A stretch of 64,000 bases of DNA, taken from Acidobacteriota bacterium (GTDB lineage Bacteria > Actinomycetota > Acidimicrobiia > Acidimicrobiales > Microtrichaceae). The stretch covers positions 62,001 to 126,000 of the forward strand of contig QEUP01000010.1 in assembly GCA_003577145.1 (NCBI GenBank), read 5' to 3'. A program made the position numbers and the translations under genes. How positions within the stretch are numbered: position 1 is the first letter of the stretch; each line of letters opens with the position of its first letter. This document shows positions 4,595-36,746 of this stretch, piece after piece. Under the pieces are notes generated by a model that saw only the letters and a list, made by a program, of their open reading frames with translations, was not told the origin of the DNA and ran no database searches.

Positions 4595-5069
4595 CACCGA
4601 CAGCATCACTCTCGGCGGAGTGAGTGAGGGGGACGAGCTCCCGGTGCTGTCCTATGACGTGAGCGCCACCACGATCGTGTTGGGAGCGCTGGCATCGCGG
4701 GACTGGCGGCCGATGCACCACGACTACGACTTCGCAGTGAACCGCAACGGCATCCGGGACATCTTCATGAACACACCCAACCAGGCGGCGTGGTTCGAGC
4801 GCTACGTCACGGACTGGACGGGCCCCAAGGGCCGGTTGGGGAGAATGACGTTCCGCATGAAGGGCTCGGTCTTTCCCAAGGACACCATGACCATCTCGGG
4901 ACGCGTCAGCGGCACCGAGATCGACGACACCGGCTGCGGCTGGGCCGACCTCGACATCGAGCTGAGCGTGGACGGTGACACCAAGACGAGCTGCCAGGCC
5001 CGCGTCGCTGTTCCCACCAGCAGCGACGACAACCCCTGGACCCGCCGCGGCGACCACTGGCAACCATGA
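4584..5069 (+). CDS. MaoC-like enoyl-CoA hydratase (catalytic half)
   Basis: A 161-residue hot-dog protein. SRDWRPMHHDYDFA corresponds to the hydratase-2 motif in which an Asp and a His activate water on the 2-enoyl-CoA. ATG 4584 overlaps the partner gene by 11 bp, so the two are probably co-translated as subunits of one heteromeric hydratase. Longer in-frame readings upstream lie wholly inside the preceding gene. The stop codon lies at the edge of the palindromic repeat element at 5065-5120. Confidence 0.83.
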   Translation: MVADTDSITLGGVSEGDELPVLSYDVSATTIVLGALASRDWRPMHHDYDFAVNRNGIRDIFMNTPNQAAWFERYVTDWTGPKGRLGRMTFRMKGSVFPKDTMTISGRVSGTEIDDTGCGWADLDIELSVDGDTKTSCQARVAVPTSSDDNPWTRRGDHWQP

Positions 5070-5120
5070 TTTGTGAACCGAAAAGGCCCCTATAGGGGCC
5101 ATCCGCGTTCACAAATCGTG
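5065..5120 (+). repeat. Nested palindromic repeat element, copy 1 (terminator-like)
   Basis: Outer arms GATTTGTGAAC (5068-5078) and GTTCACAAATC (5107-5117) enclose the perfect 16-bp palindrome GGCCCCTATAGGGGCC (5085-5100). Outside the outer arms, two more base pairs and one G-T wobble extend the stem. The hydratase stop codon TGA (5067-5069) overlaps its left edge. A second copy lies at 28195-28254 on the other strand, in the same orientation relative to its upstream gene. It may act as a terminator or mRNA-stabilising hairpin, or be a REP-like dispersed element. Confidence 0.85.
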
Positions 5121-11755: not shown

Positions 11756-12493
11756 TCAGCCCGTGGTCGCTTCGTGGACAGCCATCGCTGCACCGACGAT
11801 GCCGGCGTTGTTGAGGAACTTGGCAGCGACCACGTCGTGGTCCAGATAGCCGAAGAACCTCTCGCTGCGCTTGGCGATGCCACCGCCGACTATCACCAGA
11901 TCGGGGTTGACCAGCGCAGTGACGCGGTTGAGGTACTCGTTGAACCGCTTCGCCCACTTCTTCCAGCTGAGGTCCTTCTCCTTGCGGATGCGTCCCGCTG
12001 CCCTCGACTCGGCATCTCGGCCCCTCACCTCGATGTGTCCGAGCTCGGTGTTCGGTACGAGGACCTGATCGACGAACAGCGCCGTGCCGAGCCCTGTACC
12101 GATCGTGATGAGCAGCACCGTACCGTCGACACCCTTGCCCGCTCCGTGACGCATCTCTGCCAGGCCCGCGGCATCGGCGTCGTTCAACATGACGAACTCG
12201 CAACTCGCTCTCTCGCCGAACAGCTTGGAGGCGTCAAGGCCGACCCAACGACTGTCGAGGTTGACCGCAGTCAGGATCGTGCCGCCTTTGACGACGCCGG
12301 GAAAGGTGCAGCCCACCGGTCCGGAGTAGCGATGGTGGTCGACGATCTCGGCCACCACCTCGGCCATAGCCGGCGGTGTCGCAGGGTGCGGCGTCGGGAT
12401 GCGGAAACGGTCAGCGGTCAGCTCCCCGCTCGAGACCTCGACCGTGGAGCCCTTCATCCCCGTCCCACCGATGTCTATCCCGAGATACTCCAA
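11756..12493 (-). CDS. ppgK: Polyphosphate glucokinase (ROK family)
   Basis: A 245-residue ROK-fold kinase that phosphorylates glucose to glucose-6-phosphate using polyphosphate or ATP, in the cytoplasm. [12 protein letters not shown] is the phosphate-binding motif, FPGVVKGG and [12 protein letters not shown] carry the sugar-binding and catalytic Asp segment, and [12 protein letters not shown] is the second phosphate loop. [22 protein letters not shown] matches polyphosphate-dependent members. It lies downstream of zwf on the same strand with a possible hairpin between, so the two may be only partly co-transcribed. Its product is the substrate of zwf. Confidence 0.92.
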
Positions 12494-24493: not shown

Positions 24494-25243
24494 TCAGACG
24501 GCCTGATCCACCTCCAGGCTGGCGATTGCAGCATCGACCGTGGCCTCCGTGGTGGCGTCGGGGACGTTCGCGTCGAAGTAGACGGCGTGGTCACCGAGTT
24601 GGATGGCGCCCACCCAGTAAGAGGAGCCGGCGTCGCCGCAGTTGCGGTAGACCTCGTGATGGCCTTCGAAGTTCTCAGCACTCATCGGCACCCGCCCCTC
24701 GTAGGTGCAAGCGGCGGGGGGTGTCAGATCGTCCAGGAACGCCGTGGTGTCGAGAGCGGGGTTCTCTACGACGGCCAGCCACATGCCCGGCGTGGTGAAG
24801 CCCTCGAAGTAGGCCTCGGTGTCGGATGACACGGTCACCTCCCTACCGCTGACCGAGCCGTCGGTCATGTCGCCGGCCACGGCGTCGGACCACTCCGAGG
24901 GCACCTCCAGCGAGATGGTACCGAGGTCGGACTCGTCGACGACCAGCGTCGTGCCGGCTGCTCCGGAGTCGGGCTGAGGCTCTGCACCTGGGTCCCCAGC
25001 GGTGCCGGCGAGACCGGCGAGAACGGTGGCGCCGGGGGCCGCGGCTCCAGGTGTGTCGGCTCCGGGATCCAGGGGCTGAACCTCGGCCGTCGGGCCGAAC
25101 ACGAGCAAGGCGATGACGGCGACCACCAGTGCCGCTACCACTGCCACCCCGGCGACATGGATCGGTCTCGGGCGATTGCCTGCATGCATGAACATGCCAC
25201 GGGGAGGATTCTGGATGCCCGCATCGGTGAATGAGGTCGTCAC
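24494..25243 (-). CDS. Membrane-anchored hypothetical protein
   Basis: A 249-residue protein with a short cytoplasmic N-terminus, one transmembrane segment (VAGVAVVAALVVAVIALLVFG, about residues 32-52), an Ala/Gly/Pro linker to about residue 95, and an external domain of about 150 residues. The domain starts with EVPSEWSDAVAG, resembling serine/threonine-kinase-associated or lipoprotein-like stress domains seen in actinobacteria. Cys in PAACTYEG and YRNCGDAG may form a disulfide. GTG 25243 has GAAGGGA upstream. I cannot name a function. Confidence 0.75.
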   Translation of the reverse strand: MTTSFTDAGIQNPPRGMFMHAGNRPRPIHVAGVAVVAALVVAVIALLVFGPTAEVQPLDPGADTPGAAAPGATVLAGLAGTAGDPGAEPQPDSGAAGTTLVVDESDLGTISLEVPSEWSDAVAGDMTDGSVSGREVTVSSDTEAYFEGFTTPGMWLAVVENPALDTTAFLDDLTPPAACTYEGRVPMSAENFEGHHEVYRNCGDAGSSYWVGAIQLGDHAVYFDANVPDATTEATVDAAIASLEVDQAV

Positions 25244-25376: not shown

Positions 25377-25883
25377 TCAAGAAGGCCGCGAGGCCGAACG
25401 CAGCAGGCGAGGCGGCAAGAGCCACTCGAGGCGACCACTCGCTGGTCGGACGTGATCCCAGCGTTCAGCAGCAAGATCGATCAGGGCCATCGCCGCGGTC
25501 GGGACCCGGTAGTCACCGCCTCCCAGCAGCAGAGCCAACAGCTCCGAGGTCGTGGGCTCGTGCCCCACCACCAACAGCCGCTGTGTCGCATCGTCCTCCT
25601 CGAGGACCGCAGACAGCGCAGCCCGCGCCCCGCCGCCATAGAGACGGCCATCGGTTCGGACCGCGCAGGACCACCCGCCGGCTCCCATGGCCAGCTCCAG
25701 CGTCTCCTGCGTCCTCGCGGTCGGCGAGACCAACACCCCGTCCGGGACCTTGTCCACTCCGGTGAGAAGCTCGCCCATGGCGGCCGCCGCCCTCCGGCCC
25801 CGCTTGTTGAGCGGCCGGTCGGCGTCGGGGACCACCGAGCTCCAGTCCGACTTGCCGTGCCGGAACAGGATCAGCTCGGCCAC
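25377..25883 (-). CDS. SixA-type phosphohistidine phosphatase
   Basis: A 168-residue histidine-phosphatase-fold protein. LFRHGKSDW carries the nucleophile His9, SPTARTQETLE the phosphate-binding Arg and VVGHEPTTSEL the second His. SixA removes phosphate from histidine in phosphorelay or PTS proteins. GTG 25883 overlaps the ParA gene by 13 bp and follows AAAGGACGGG. It closes a three-gene operon CHAD-ParA-SixA, so its target may be linked to that system, for example polyphosphate or phosphohistidine chemistry. Confidence 0.87.
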   Translation of the reverse strand: MAELILFRHGKSDWSSVVPDADRPLNKRGRRAAAAMGELLTGVDKVPDGVLVSPTARTQETLELAMGAGGWSCAVRTDGRLYGGGARAALSAVLEEDDATQRLLVVGHEPTTSELLALLLGGGDYRVPTAAMALIDLAAERWDHVRPASGRLEWLLPPRLLRSASRPS

Positions 25884-26623
25884 GCCACCCGTCCTTTGAT
25901 CTCCTCCCACAGCGAGCGGAAGGCCTCCGACGCCCGGCTGCGAACGGAGTAGTCGCCGAGAGGAGCACGCCTCACGCTCATCTGCTCGACGCTGCTGGAG
26001 TAGGGGATCTGGGTGGACAGGATCTCGGGTCTCTCCTCGGGTAGGGAGCTGACGATCTCACAGTGGAGGTTGCGGCGCCGGTCGACCATCGAGAAGAAAG
26101 GGGCGATGGCCACCCCTCCGGTGTTGACACCGGCCACTACGGCGTCGAGCTGATCGAGCGTCCGCACCGAGAGCGTCGTGGGGATCAACGGAACCAGCAA
26201 GGCGTCGGCGGCGGCGATGACGTTCTCCGACACCAGCGAGATGCTCGGGGGGCAGTCGAGGAAGACGTAGTCGTACTCGTCCCCGAGTGGCTTGAGGACC
26301 TTCCGCAACCGGCTCGTCGGCCGCTTGACGCTGTCGAGGAGCAGGTCCATGTAGCGGTACGAGAAGTCAGCGGGCACCAGGTCGAGATCCCGGTAGTCGG
26401 TCCCCTTGATCAGCTCGTCGAGCTCACGGCGCCTGCGGACGATCGCCTTGGCTCCCCCTTTCACCTTCTGTTTGATCCGGAAGCAGTAGGTGGCGGCCCC
26501 CTGGGGGTCGAGGTCCCAGACCAGGGTTCGCTCACCGCTTCGGGCGGCGAAGTAGGCCAGGTTGACCGCAGCCGAGGTCTTCCCGACCCCGCCCTTGATC
26601 GAGTAGGTGGCCAAGATCCTCAC
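25871..26623 (-). CDS. ParA/MinD-like ATPase without ParB
   Basis: A 250-residue deviant Walker ATPase: KGGVGKT at residues 10-16, WDLDPQGAATY (switch I/A'), and FLDCPPSISLVSENVIAAADALLVPLIPTTLS. Such proteins form dynamic dimers on DNA or membrane and position cargo (chromosomes, plasmids, granules, chemoreceptors). GTG 26623 overlaps the CHAD gene stop by 4 bp and no parB is nearby, so this is probably an orphan cargo-positioning ATPase. The partner would be the CYTH/CHAD protein. See the matching finding. Confidence 0.87.
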   Translation of the reverse strand: MRILATYSIKGGVGKTSAAVNLAYFAARSGERTLVWDLDPQGAATYCFRIKQKVKGGAKAIVRRRRELDELIKGTDYRDLDLVPADFSYRYMDLLLDSVKRPTSRLRKVLKPLGDEYDYVFLDCPPSISLVSENVIAAADALLVPLIPTTLSVRTLDQLDAVVAGVNTGGVAIAPFFSMVDRRRNLHCEIVSSLPEERPEILSTQIPYSSSVEQMSVRRAPLGDYSVRSRASEAFRSLWEEIKGRVAWPS

Positions 26624-28176
26624 TCGGCCCCCGCGAGGTTGGCTCTGAACAGCCCGCGATAGCGCTTGCGGTTGCGAGGGCGATCGAAGCGGGCGAAGTG
26701 CTCGGCGAACTCGGCCCGAGCGCCGGCCTCGCGCCGGCGGATGTGGCCGATGAGGACCTCCATGGCCGACAGGGTGGCCGGCGAGGTTCGGCTGCCGGTC
26801 GTCATCAGCTCGGCGAAGCCCTCGAGCCTCGCGGTCTGGACCTCGCAGTCCTGAAGCTCCCCCAGGTTGTCCTGCAGCTGCTTCAGCGCAGCGATCAGCT
26901 CCGCGATCTCGTCGTCGGGGAACAGCGCCCGGAAGGCATCGATCAGGTACCGGAGCTTCTTGGCGCGCTTGCGCAGGTCGTGCAGCGCCTCGATAGGTGC
27001 GTCGTCATCGACGAGGCGGCCGTGTCGTAGCAGGCTGCGGTACGAAGCCCAGATGCGCTCGGATGCAACGGCCAGGATCGGCTGGGATGCCTGTGGCTGC
27101 CCGACGGTCGAACGAGCATGGGACAGGAAGTACCGGTAGCGGTTGACCAGCGAGCGGTAGCGGCCCTGGTCGAGCACGGCCACCAGCTGGGCGAAGGCAT
27201 CGTCCCGGGCGGAGCGGAGGAAACCCCTCAGCGGGAGGATGCCGACGTCGGCCGGTGGTGGCAGTTCCGACCGCAGCTCCTCGAAGCCGAGCAGGTAGAC
27301 GTCGAGATCGCGAAGGTCACTGGTCTGCTGGGCCAGCCACCGGAACTCCGGGCGCAACATCGCCAACGGCTCCGGAGCCAGTACATCCTTGGCCGCGGCG
27401 AGCACGGACCGCGTGCGGCGGATGGCGACACGGAAATCGTGCAGGGACTCGGTGTCGATGTCGCTCCTGACTCCCTTCTCGTTCCAGACGACCGCCTCCA
27501 GGAGCTGTGTGAGAACCTCGGTGAAGGCTTCCGCTGCGGCGGTATCGGGTGCCAGGAGCGTGCCCGACACCGGGTGAACCCGTCCCGCGTCGGGGTGGGT
27601 GACCTGCAGGGCCCTGGTGGCCAGGTCGTCGGACGTGGCGGTCGTGCCGAACGACTCCTCGAGACGGTGGACCAAACGGTCCGCTTCCCTGTCGTATCCC
27701 CTGAGGGGCTCGACCCGGATGCGCCAGCCGAGGCGCCTGACACCCGAGTCGGTGGGCACCTCGGTCGATTCGACGTGCACGTACGCGACCGTCTTGTCGT
27801 TCATGTCCACCGCCTTGAACCTGTGGACATGTGAGCGGACCTCAGCCATCGGACAGACCGCCCGGATCTTGGTGTGCTTCGCCAGACGGTCCCGCAGTCG
27901 TCCCGCCGGGAGGTCGGAGGCGAATCTCGGGACCTCGCCGACACGGGTGCCCGCCAGGGCATCGCTCGAATGCCGGTCCAGCACGGTCACCTCGCGGCTC
28001 CCATTCGTCTGGTCCTCGCGGAGGATCAGTCCGGAGCGATACAGCCGCCAGTCGAGCGTGTCATAGAGGGTCGACGCGACGTTCGACTCCCCCACCGATT
28101 CGAGCAGGGGCAGCTGACCGAGCACGGACAGCACCGAGGCCATCGTCACGTCCGGCTTCAGCACACGGTCGGGCAT
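26620..28176 (-). CDS. CYTH-CHAD domain protein
   Basis: A 518-residue protein. Residues 1 to about 200 resemble a CYTH (triphosphate tunnel) domain, but the N-terminal ExExK signature is replaced by LKPDVT, so catalysis is doubtful. Residues about 215-510 form a CHAD domain: two copies of the conserved histidine motif appear as SLHDFRVAIRRTRSVL and ALHDLRKRAKKLRYLID. CHAD proteins bind polyphosphate and locate to polyphosphate granules. The gene leads the CHAD-ParA-SixA operon. The palindromic repeat copy 2 lies just upstream, marking the end of the preceding ABC operon. Confidence 0.88.
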   Translation of the reverse strand: MPDRVLKPDVTMASVLSVLGQLPLLESVGESNVASTLYDTLDWRLYRSGLILREDQTNGSREVTVLDRHSSDALAGTRVGEVPRFASDLPAGRLRDRLAKHTKIRAVCPMAEVRSHVHRFKAVDMNDKTVAYVHVESTEVPTDSGVRRLGWRIRVEPLRGYDREADRLVHRLEESFGTTATSDDLATRALQVTHPDAGRVHPVSGTLLAPDTAAAEAFTEVLTQLLEAVVWNEKGVRSDIDTESLHDFRVAIRRTRSVLAAAKDVLAPEPLAMLRPEFRWLAQQTSDLRDLDVYLLGFEELRSELPPPADVGILPLRGFLRSARDDAFAQLVAVLDQGRYRSLVNRYRYFLSHARSTVGQPQASQPILAVASERIWASYRSLLRHGRLVDDDAPIEALHDLRKRAKKLRYLIDAFRALFPDDEIAELIAALKQLQDNLGELQDCEVQTARLEGFAELMTTGSRTSPATLSAMEVLIGHIRRREAGARAEFAEHFARFDRPRNRKRYRGLFRANLAGAE

Positions 28177-28194: not shown

Positions 28195-28254
28195 AACTCG
28201 ATTTGTGAACGCGCGTGGCCCCTATAGGGGCCTTTTCGGTTCACAAATCGAGTT
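28195..28254 (-). repeat. Nested palindromic repeat element, copy 2 (terminator-like)
   Basis: Outer arms AACTCGATTTGTGAAC (28195-28210) and GTTCACAAATCGAGTT (28239-28254) are perfect over 16 bp and enclose the 16-bp palindrome GGCCCCTATAGGGGCC (28217-28232). Read on the minus strand, it matches copy 1 (5065-5120) from GATTTGTGAACCGAAAAGG through the core and CGCGTTCACAAATCG, with changes only in the short internal spacer. It begins 3 bases after the FtsX-permease stop, so both copies sit immediately behind a gene in the same orientation. Confidence 0.88.
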
Positions 28255-35275: not shown

Positions 35276-36688
35276 TCAGTCCGCAAATGGAGTGAGCCCG
35301 TCGGCGGCTTCTTTGACCTCCTCGAACGCCGAGGGGATCTGTGCGGCCAGCACCCAGACATCGGGCAGCAGGTCGTCACAGACCATGAAGCCGAAGTCGA
35401 TGTGGTCGACGTAGCTCATCACCGTGATGTTGAGGCCGGAACCCTCGAGCACGGGGCCCATGGGATAGGCCCTCACCATCTCGGCGCCCGCCATGTAGAT
35501 CGGGAAGGTCGGCCCGGGGATGCTGGAGATCATCAGGTTGTGGATGGGGCGATGGTGATCGGCGAGCTTGCTCCTCGCGTACAGCCACATGCCCGCGTTG
35601 AACAGCGTCGGGTCGGCAACGTCGGCCCACTCGCTCAGCAGCGAACCCCCGACCATCTCGTGCTCGCGCTTGGCGGCGTCGGTGACGGTCTGGATGGCCC
35701 GGACCCGCTCGGTCGTGTCCTCGATGTCGGTGCACAGCGACGTGTAGAAGCCCGAGAGCTTGTTGTTGTGCTCGTCGTGCTCGTCGTCGCCACGGACCGA
35801 TGTCGGGCAGGTGGCGAGCAGCGGCCTCTCGGGCAACTCGTCCTTGGCCAGTAGATACCGGCGCAGTGCACCCGCGCAGATGGCCAGGACGATGTCGTTG
35901 ACGGTGCACCCGAAGGCGCCCTTGACCTTCTTGACCTCGTCGAGGCTGACCTGTGAATAGGCGACGTTCCGGCTCGGCGTGAGCGAACCGTTGAAGAGGG
36001 CCTGCGGGGCAGCCAGAGGCGTTCCACCCGGTGCCTCGTGCTCGACCTTGCGCGACCGCCTCACCGCGGCGACGTTCCTTGCGGTCTTGCGGGCCAGAGG
36101 GACGAAGTTCCTGAACTCGTGCAGCCGCTGACGGATGGCGTCGGCGACCACCTCCCGCTCTGTCGGCCGTGGCTCGGGTTCGGTGTCGGGGGGTTCGGTC
36201 GCCGGAGCGTCACGCTCCAGGTCGAAGAAGTTCATGATGGTGTCGACGCCCGCCACGCCGTCGAGGCACGAATGGTGGACCTTGGCGACGAGCGCGATGT
36301 TGCCGTCGTAGAGCCCGTCGATGACGAACAGCTCCCAGAGCGGGCGCCGACGATCGAGGGGGGCGCTGGCGATGTCGCCGGTGAGGCGCCCGAGCTCGTG
36401 AGGTCCGCCTGGCTTGGGAAGCGTCACGTGACGAACGTGGTTGACGATGCGGAAGTTCTGGTCGTCGACCCAATAGGGATGATGGATCTGCAACGGCGGC
36501 ACGACCAGCTTCTTGGTGAAGATCGGCACGAGGTGGATCCGCTCGGCGATCCGGGTCTGGATCTTGCCCGGCGAGTACCCGCCGGGCATGCCCGAGGGAT
36601 CGAGCACCGCGGTGAGTGCCACGTGCATGTGGACCGCCTCGGTCTCCATGTAGAGGAAGAAGGCGTCGAGACCGCTCAACCGTTCCAT
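35276..36688 (-). CDS. Wax ester synthase/diacylglycerol acyltransferase (WS/DGAT)
   Basis: A 470-residue bifunctional acyltransferase that makes triacylglycerol or wax ester storage lipid from acyl-CoA at the membrane. VHHSCLDGVAG is the catalytic HHxxxDG motif, PLWELFVIDGL and the later KVKGAFGCTVNDIVLAICAGALRRYL (ND motif region) are family landmarks, and MERLSGLDAFFLYMETEAVHMHV is a typical N-terminus, which is why ATG 36688 is preferred over GTG 36733. An imperfect palindrome lies 37-58 bp upstream. Adjacent acyl-CoA dehydrogenase genes tie storage and oxidation. Confidence 0.92.
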   Translation of the reverse strand: MERLSGLDAFFLYMETEAVHMHVALTAVLDPSGMPGGYSPGKIQTRIAERIHLVPIFTKKLVVPPLQIHHPYWVDDQNFRIVNHVRHVTLPKPGGPHELGRLTGDIASAPLDRRRPLWELFVIDGLYDGNIALVAKVHHSCLDGVAGVDTIMNFFDLERDAPATEPPDTEPEPRPTEREVVADAIRQRLHEFRNFVPLARKTARNVAAVRRSRKVEHEAPGGTPLAAPQALFNGSLTPSRNVAYSQVSLDEVKKVKGAFGCTVNDIVLAICAGALRRYLLAKDELPERPLLATCPTSVRGDDEHDEHNNKLSGFYTSLCTDIEDTTERVRAIQTVTDAAKREHEMVGGSLLSEWADVADPTLFNAGMWLYARSKLADHHRPIHNLMISSIPGPTFPIYMAGAEMVRAYPMGPVLEGSGLNITVMSYVDHIDFGFMVCDDLLPDVWVLAAQIPSAFEEVKEAADGLTPFAD

Positions 36689-36724
36689 GACGTACCCCTG
36701 AATGTGGCGGACCTGTGGAGCGCC

Positions 36725-36746
36725 TGTCGACAAGCGCTTGCCGACA
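36725..36746. promoter_or_regulatory. Palindromic operator upstream of WS/DGAT
   Basis: TGTCGACAAGC (36725-36735) and GCTTGCCGACA (36736-36746) form a 22-bp palindrome with one mismatched pair, 37-58 bp before the WS/DGAT start. Its core CAAGCGCTTG fits the CAAGnnCTTG centre known for mycobacterial KstR2 sites, although the flanks differ. It is a probable TetR-type repressor site. Confidence 0.55.

Follow-up and report, generated by a model that had tools for sequence, protein, structure and literature searches.

In McdA/McdB-type systems, a ParA-type ATPase is encoded with a cargo-bound partner and each cargo has one dedicated ATPase, as laid out in sections of a 2023 survey of ParA/MinD cargoes (PMC10241942) whose main text mentions neither polyphosphate (polyP) nor CHAD. 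According to the excerpted text of a 2025 review (PMC13052382), which discusses AlgP and chromosome-linked behavior for polyP granules and ParA for carboxysomes, the spacing and inheritance of these granules in bacteria are largely open besides AlgP of Pseudomonas aeruginosa, a protein that spaces them on the nucleoid (see also PMC9239181, in excerpt). Here, we describe a gene pair encoding a CHAD-domain protein and a ParA-type ATPase in a 64,000-nucleotide stretch (hereafter the window) of an assembly named Acidobacteriota bacterium and placed by GTDB in the order Acidimicrobiales (GCA_003577145.1, contig QEUP01000010.1, positions 62,001 to 126,000). The occurrence of this pair in about ten phyla suggests a machine for placing or sharing out phosphate-storage granules. 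Like McdA/McdB, ParABS, PpfA, and PomXYZ, it combines a ParA-type ATPase with an adjoining partner gene; unlike McdA/McdB, its partner is predicted to be a CHAD/pseudo-CYTH protein and its cargo is presumed to be an inorganic polymer granule. It also differs from AlgP, which is a histone-like linker and not an ATPase (PMC9239181; PMC13052382, both in excerpt).

The preliminary description of this DNA had recognized three coupled genes with overlaps of 4 and 13 bp, and both the open reading frames (ORFs) and their Pfam families bear this out. On the minus strand, the order is CHAD, then ParA, then a SixA-like gene:

26620–28176, minus strand: CHAD protein of 518 aa, with a degenerate CYTH/triphosphate tunnel metalloenzyme (TTM) domain (about aa 1–200), a CHAD domain, and a C-terminal helix; proposed granule adaptor.
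27577–28176, minus strand: N-terminal CYTH/TTM-like domain without ExExK, from the AlphaFold model, Foldseek, and a motif check.
26821–27516, minus strand: CHAD domain proper (aa 221–452, PF05235), with H246, R249, R253, R289, R409, and Y410 kept.
25871–26623, minus strand: 250-aa ParA-type ATPase belonging to the CHAD-associated family, in GTGA overlap with the CHAD stop.
25377–25883, minus strand: SixA-like histidine phosphatase of 168 aa, accessory, in 13-bp overlap with ParA.

The CHAD product matches PF05235 with an E-value of 6e-57 (193.6 bits against a cut-off of 25.6), the ParA product matches AAA_31 (E 6e-35) and has a KGGVGKT box, and the SixA-like product, whose bounds assume a GTG start at 25883, matches PF00300 (E 1e-12; all Pfam).

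An AlphaFold model of the CHAD protein (58 sequences; mean pLDDT 94.5, pTM 0.91) retrieved CtCHAD, a CHAD phosin of Chlorobium tepidum (6qv7, 6qva, 3e0s), as the top Foldseek matches, then Escherichia coli YgiF (5a60) and, for the N-terminal part, TTM enzymes. The closest solved relative is this Chlorobium CHAD, crystallized with polyP, which shares the fold (target TM 0.88–0.93) and the same polyP ligands; its nearest ParA-linked proteins are the CHADs of two Chlorobiaceae loci, L109 (54% identity) and L114 (52%). Mutating six CtCHAD residues in various combinations weakened polyP binding (PMC6537752, consulted in excerpt, where we found no ParA connection). These residues map to H246, R249, R253, R289, R409, and Y410 of the window protein and are kept in 58, 57, 58, 58, 57, and 58 of 58 CHADs, respectively.

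The N-terminal half had been called CYTH-like. At the level of families the label fails, as a Pfam scan found no CYTH match there; at the level of fold it stands, with the model resembling triphosphate tunnel enzymes (several TTM structures matched at a Foldseek probability of 1.00, with E near 1e-4). The order of TTM followed by CHAD is that of YgiF, a tripolyphosphatase (PMC6537752, in excerpt). Unlike YgiF, the ParA-linked CHAD family has lost ExExK: the motif is gone from the window protein and from 65 of the 66 ParA-linked CHADs, with only L036 keeping it. Because many CHADs of the window's order outside the pair retain ExExK 214–266 aa ahead of the CHAD domain, the linked CHADs form a distinct, apparently non-catalytic branch, and a CYTH/TTM fold without the catalytic motif makes the protein look like an adaptor. 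That it is instead a CYTH enzyme with polyphosphatase or cyclase activity modulated by its CHAD domain, as has been proposed for Acidithiobacillus (PMC6416229, in part), with ParA incidental, strikes us as very improbable. Such an enzyme would agree with the CYTH-fold N-terminus and with the motif-bearing CHADs elsewhere in the order, but not with the near-complete loss of ExExK in the linked proteins, and a ParA coupling that spans ten phyla is not incidental.

To describe the conservation of the pair, relatives were found by ParA similarity alone, in a genome scan with alignment A1 (15 ParAs, 14 of them CHAD-linked). The best 80 of at least 391 relatives were combined with 20 loci from the window's order, so the resulting counts over 100 loci, which include one identical pair (L032/L093), describe close relatives only. 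The gene immediately upstream, in the same orientation, is CHAD at 66 loci (13 of the 20 from the order and 53 of the 80 named ones). The distance from the CHAD stop to the ParA start is −4 in 51 of these and negative in 56, 0–30 in seven, and 59–94 in three. The linked loci, among them those of Thalassobaculum litoreum and Sedimenticola selenatireducens, carry NCBI labels of ten phyla, with two more loci left unplaced; the label Myxococcota comes from records with no fuller title than 'Deltaproteobacteria bacterium', and none of the five Bacteroidota loci is linked. Within the order, a ParA match is present in 21 of 99 genomes at E ≤ 1e-30 and in 15 at E ≤ 1e-60 (window included), and CHAD is directly upstream in 14 of the latter 15, the exception being G072. 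Another genome, G082, has CHAD and then a divergent ParA that escaped the first search. The expectation that gene order would be conserved among relatives was thus borne out for CHAD and ParA, in the order and across the ten named phyla, and these counts make a chance pairing untenable. CHAD itself is found in 60 of the 99 order genomes and in 104 of 236 genomes of the window's phylum; since ParA is far rarer, most CHADs of the order have no ParA partner. Over the 66 loci, the ParA and CHAD distance matrices correlate with r 0.68 (maximum of 0.30 in 2000 permutations), which speaks for joint inheritance and not for contact, because shared species history would give a similar result. The pair is ancient or mobile, with a tie to polyphosphate. 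An apparent CHAD–ParA fusion in L027 (a 794-aa ORF) was rejected, its upstream part being an out-of-frame reading.

In a ParA tree of 105 rows, built by a quick method with one further row omitted, the 99 ParAs split from Myxococcus xanthus ParA, Thermus thermophilus Soj, and a chromosomal-type ParA of the window's own genome (L152) at a branch supported by SH-aLRT 100; the long-branch row L154 joins at this branch, which leaves the exact position of the root uncertain. Judged by sequence, the CHAD-associated ParA is a family of its own, apart from chromosomal ParA, and two loci of the window's order (L041, L042) group with the latter. CHAD linkage requires 12 changes on this tree against 31.1 in shuffles. 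The signature lysine K10, the Walker A lysine K15, the catalytic aspartate D39, and the Walker B aspartate D123 are present in 99 of 99 ParAs. Family-specific residues include R49, D86, R90, E133, P148, L151, R154, H187, E213, M215, and W239, of which P148, L151, and R154 stand in place of the CEYYALEG stretch of chromosomal ParA, and we suspect an altered partner surface there. A side branch (L035, L038, L116), which includes two genomes from the same family as the window, lies convergent with a phosphoglycerate mutase gene and not with CHAD.

These data bear on whether the gene might be an ordinary chromosome or plasmid partition ParA that sits beside CHAD by chance. The fold family and the annotation would allow it, but the tree and the conserved pairing contradict it: the CHAD-linked proteins form a separate family, and the window's genome has its chromosomal-type ParA elsewhere. 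Three more ParA-type proteins are encoded in this genome (E 1.7e-25 to 4e-15), along with one CHAD, one PPK1, and one PPX gene. Unlike in ParABS, the CHAD-linked parA has no neighboring ParB gene, as no ParB family was found in the scanned window flanks, in the annotated neighbor clusters, or among the recurrent neighbors that were named. We give chance placement almost no credence.

When all ORFs of at least 70 aa at the 100 loci were clustered, ParA (100 loci) and CHAD (68) formed the largest clusters, followed by antisense shadow ORFs and then smaller families. Pfam annotation of 11 cluster representatives recovered CYTH, PPK1, and PPK2 as well as one NUDIX, and the remaining clusters were general (ABC transporter, histidine kinase, response regulator, GTPase, HlyD, thiolase, peptidase). 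By profile, CYTH occurs at 10 of the 100 loci, PPK1 at 8, PPK2 at 4, NUDIX at 5, and PPX at 1 (L084); PPK1 or PPK2 is present at 11, and at least one of PPK1, PPK2, CYTH, PPX, or a SixA-type gene at 25 by hand count. For a single-copy gene, about 0.3 occurrences would be expected in the 1.147 Mb covered, by our estimate at one gene per 4-Mb genome. The polyphosphate connection drawn in the preliminary description is strong, being carried by the conserved polyP-contact residues and by the PPK1, PPK2, and CYTH neighbors. At one acidobacterial locus (L084/L171, from a 10.7-Mb assembly), ParA, CYTH, PPK1, PPX, and CHAD share a stretch of about 7 kb and form a compact polyphosphate island. In Marinobacter sp. 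1-4A (L098, 7001–10040), a ParA relative is convergent with PPK1, and a search of that genome for CHAD found none.

The kinase neighbors suit another reading, in which ParA is a regulator like BcsQ or FlhG that sets the place or amount of PPK work, with CHAD as a polyP sensor; granule number and size would then change, and position would be just a consequence. PF06564 BcsQ and FlhG/FleN chains are indeed among the ParA relatives, and the Marinobacter locus pairs ParA with PPK1 in a genome where CHAD was not found. Against this, ParA is coupled to a granule-binding protein and not to a kinase in 66 of the 100 loci, and the nearest solved structures (8RAY, E 4.7e-40, then Soj 1WCV) are chromosomal ParA/Soj. 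We regard regulation as rather unlikely, though worth keeping in view.

A comparable arrangement is in print for Acidithiobacillus, in which a folD-ppk-parA-CHAD cluster likewise places parA beside CHAD and ppk (PMC10892726, PMC6416229; excerpts of both). There, the cluster is taken as a conserved gene context or connected with copper resistance or cAMP, and parA is called a plasmid or chromosome partition gene; we found no idea of granule positioning in those excerpts, nor any proposal of CHAD–ParA granule positioning in the open-licence PMC papers searched.

Taken together, the most economical reading is cargo positioning, and we think it probable that CHAD and ParA are the two components of a system that handles polyphosphate granules as cargo. 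The genes and their overlap, their joint conservation, the intact ATPase residues, the polyP ligands, and the loss of ExExK are established; the mechanism is inferred from them. The CHAD protein would use the basic pore in the CHAD domain to coat the granule, a step strongly inferred because the ligands are conserved and a relative has been solved, while the N-terminal CYTH-fold domain, its catalytic motif lost, would act as a scaffold. Granule-bound CHAD may then bind nucleoid-associated ParA dimers loaded with ATP and trigger hydrolysis of the nucleotide, and the resulting clearance of ParA around each granule would leave the granules spaced and shared out at division, much as McdA positions McdB-coated carboxysomes. 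The SixA, CYTH, and PPK genes of some clusters would adjust polyP or phosphoryl metabolism outside this motor.

Several observations weigh against this reading. The 34 ParA loci without an upstream CHAD are one; two of them, from Halomonas (L100, L104), have CHAD convergent with ParA instead. Among the 27 named loci in this group, the genome carries a CHAD gene in 21, including all eight Methylococcales, and a genome search found none in the other six (one a 1.5-Mb assembly); the seven unlinked order loci were covered by the CHAD search of the 99 order genomes. Of 19 split CHADs whose surroundings were taken, 11 are of the ParA-associated type. Conversely, four order genomes (G030, G047, G066, G095) have a linked-type CHAD and no ParA match, although in G047 short ParA-like pieces 3′ of CHAD are perhaps a decayed gene. 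The family is also patchy in the window's phylum, where ParA matches at E ≤ 1e-60 are present in just 8 of the 236 genomes, six with CHAD upstream and two without an adjoining CHAD. As for contact between the partners, no ParB-like N-terminal activation peptide was recognized in the CHAD alignment; the C-terminal tails are alike in ParA-linked and split CHADs, with no linked-specific ParA-binding tail evident.

A further difficulty concerns DNA binding. In M. xanthus ParA, for which D60 is the catalytic aspartate, R238 is required for DNA binding (PMC12462528, in excerpt). This arginine aligns to residue 211, which is basic in none of the 99 ParAs and acidic in at least 57. R183, by comparison, is retained in 90 of 99 and aligns with a conserved arginine of chromosomal ParA, which we take to be the DNA-contacting R189 of Soj. 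Positions 49, 51, 53, 55, 59, and 182–184 are basic in 68–97 of the 99 proteins, and the basic clusters (49–59, 182–188, 214, and 219) may or may not replace the lost arginine. As far as the alignment can tell, DNA binding by the CHAD-linked ParA is therefore likely but not settled, with 211 not basic while R183 and the 49–59 and 182–188 stretches are. The same residues could be put to another use: ParA might bind polyP and not the nucleoid, through the family-specific basic R49-x-K-x-K-x-K-G-G loop and the basic 182–188 run, making CHAD and ParA granule coat or nucleation proteins. The conserved basic positions and the replaced DNA-binding arginine would fit this, yet R183 matches the arginine of chromosomal ParA and basic patches suit DNA equally well, and we consider it distinctly improbable.

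The third gene of the operon is best called an optional companion, an accessory of CHAD/polyP neighborhoods. Like the SixA phosphohistidine phosphatase, its product has an intact active site (R8, H9, R57, and H108 invariant in 16 aligned sequences); unlike SixA, it falls below the cut-off of its best curated match, TIGR00249 (53.9 bits against 74.5, NCBIfam). SixA-type genes are present at 12 of the 100 ParA loci, corrected from 15 after matches in L035, L038, and L116 proved to be phosphoglycerate mutases and were removed; within the 12, L026 and L062 match only in part and L028 is of the MutT1 type, a label that, here and for domains near CHAD in the order, we assume to apply. The gene comes directly after ParA in the same orientation in the window, L023, L083, L106, and L110, and more loosely in L026, L080, and L062; the others are convergent or divergent, or accompany split CHAD genes. 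With a count of 12 in 100 loci, SixA is optional and, in contrast to the preliminary description, not part of the operon core. It lies near seven of the 11 split CHADs of ParA-associated type, and its presence beside CHAD genes away from ParA assigns it to the CHAD/polyP neighborhood. In the window's phylum, a gene for a MutT1-type histidine phosphatase is often close to CHADs outside the ParA pair (L124, L127, L128, L131, L136, L137, L140, L191, L219). The suggestion that SixA dephosphorylates CHAD histidines finds no support: the conserved H246 is the counterpart of a polyP-binding residue in the solved Chlorobium CHAD. A SixA-PPX-CHAD grouping is reported from biomining archaea (PMC10892726, in excerpt).

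Two further features of the window concern the operon or polyP:

28195–28254, minus strand: strong hairpin separating CHAD from the upstream ftsX-like gene (dG −42.9, z −8.3), a copy of a genome-wide palindromic repeat.
11756–12493, minus strand: ppgK, polyphosphate glucokinase (NF045942), unlinked to the operon.

The hairpin is probably a transcription-unit boundary. It belongs to a near-perfect palindrome, ATTTGTGAAC ... GGCCCCTATAGGGGCC ... GTTCACAAAT, with at least six genome copies and none in controls; copies lie at 28195–28254 and 5065–5120 of the window and on genome contigs C27, C48, C56, and C62, and we propose the label REP-like or terminator-like element. The ppgK gene, already noted in the window, was confirmed by its NF045942 match (308 bits; cut-off 250) and shows polyP use. 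On the same strand 3′ of the operon, 24494–25243 (minus) encodes a 249-aa protein with an N-terminal hydrophobic stretch by eye and no Pfam match above cut-off. A wax ester/triacylglycerol synthase at 35276–36733 (minus; TIGR02946, 453.7 bits, above cut-off) is carbon storage sharing the window with polyphosphate genes.

We see an even chance that the pair is an ATP-driven machine dedicated to partitioning an inorganic storage polymer, its adaptor derived from a polyphosphatase-type CYTH-CHAD enzyme through loss of the catalytic motif, and the overlapping pair, found in about ten phyla, probably transferred as a unit. A biochemical handle is at hand because a close relative of the adaptor has already been crystallized with polyphosphate. 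The widespread overlapping ParA–CHAD pair thus offers a concrete two-gene hypothesis for granule spacing and inheritance and, if true, would extend the ParA ATPases to a new class of cargo.

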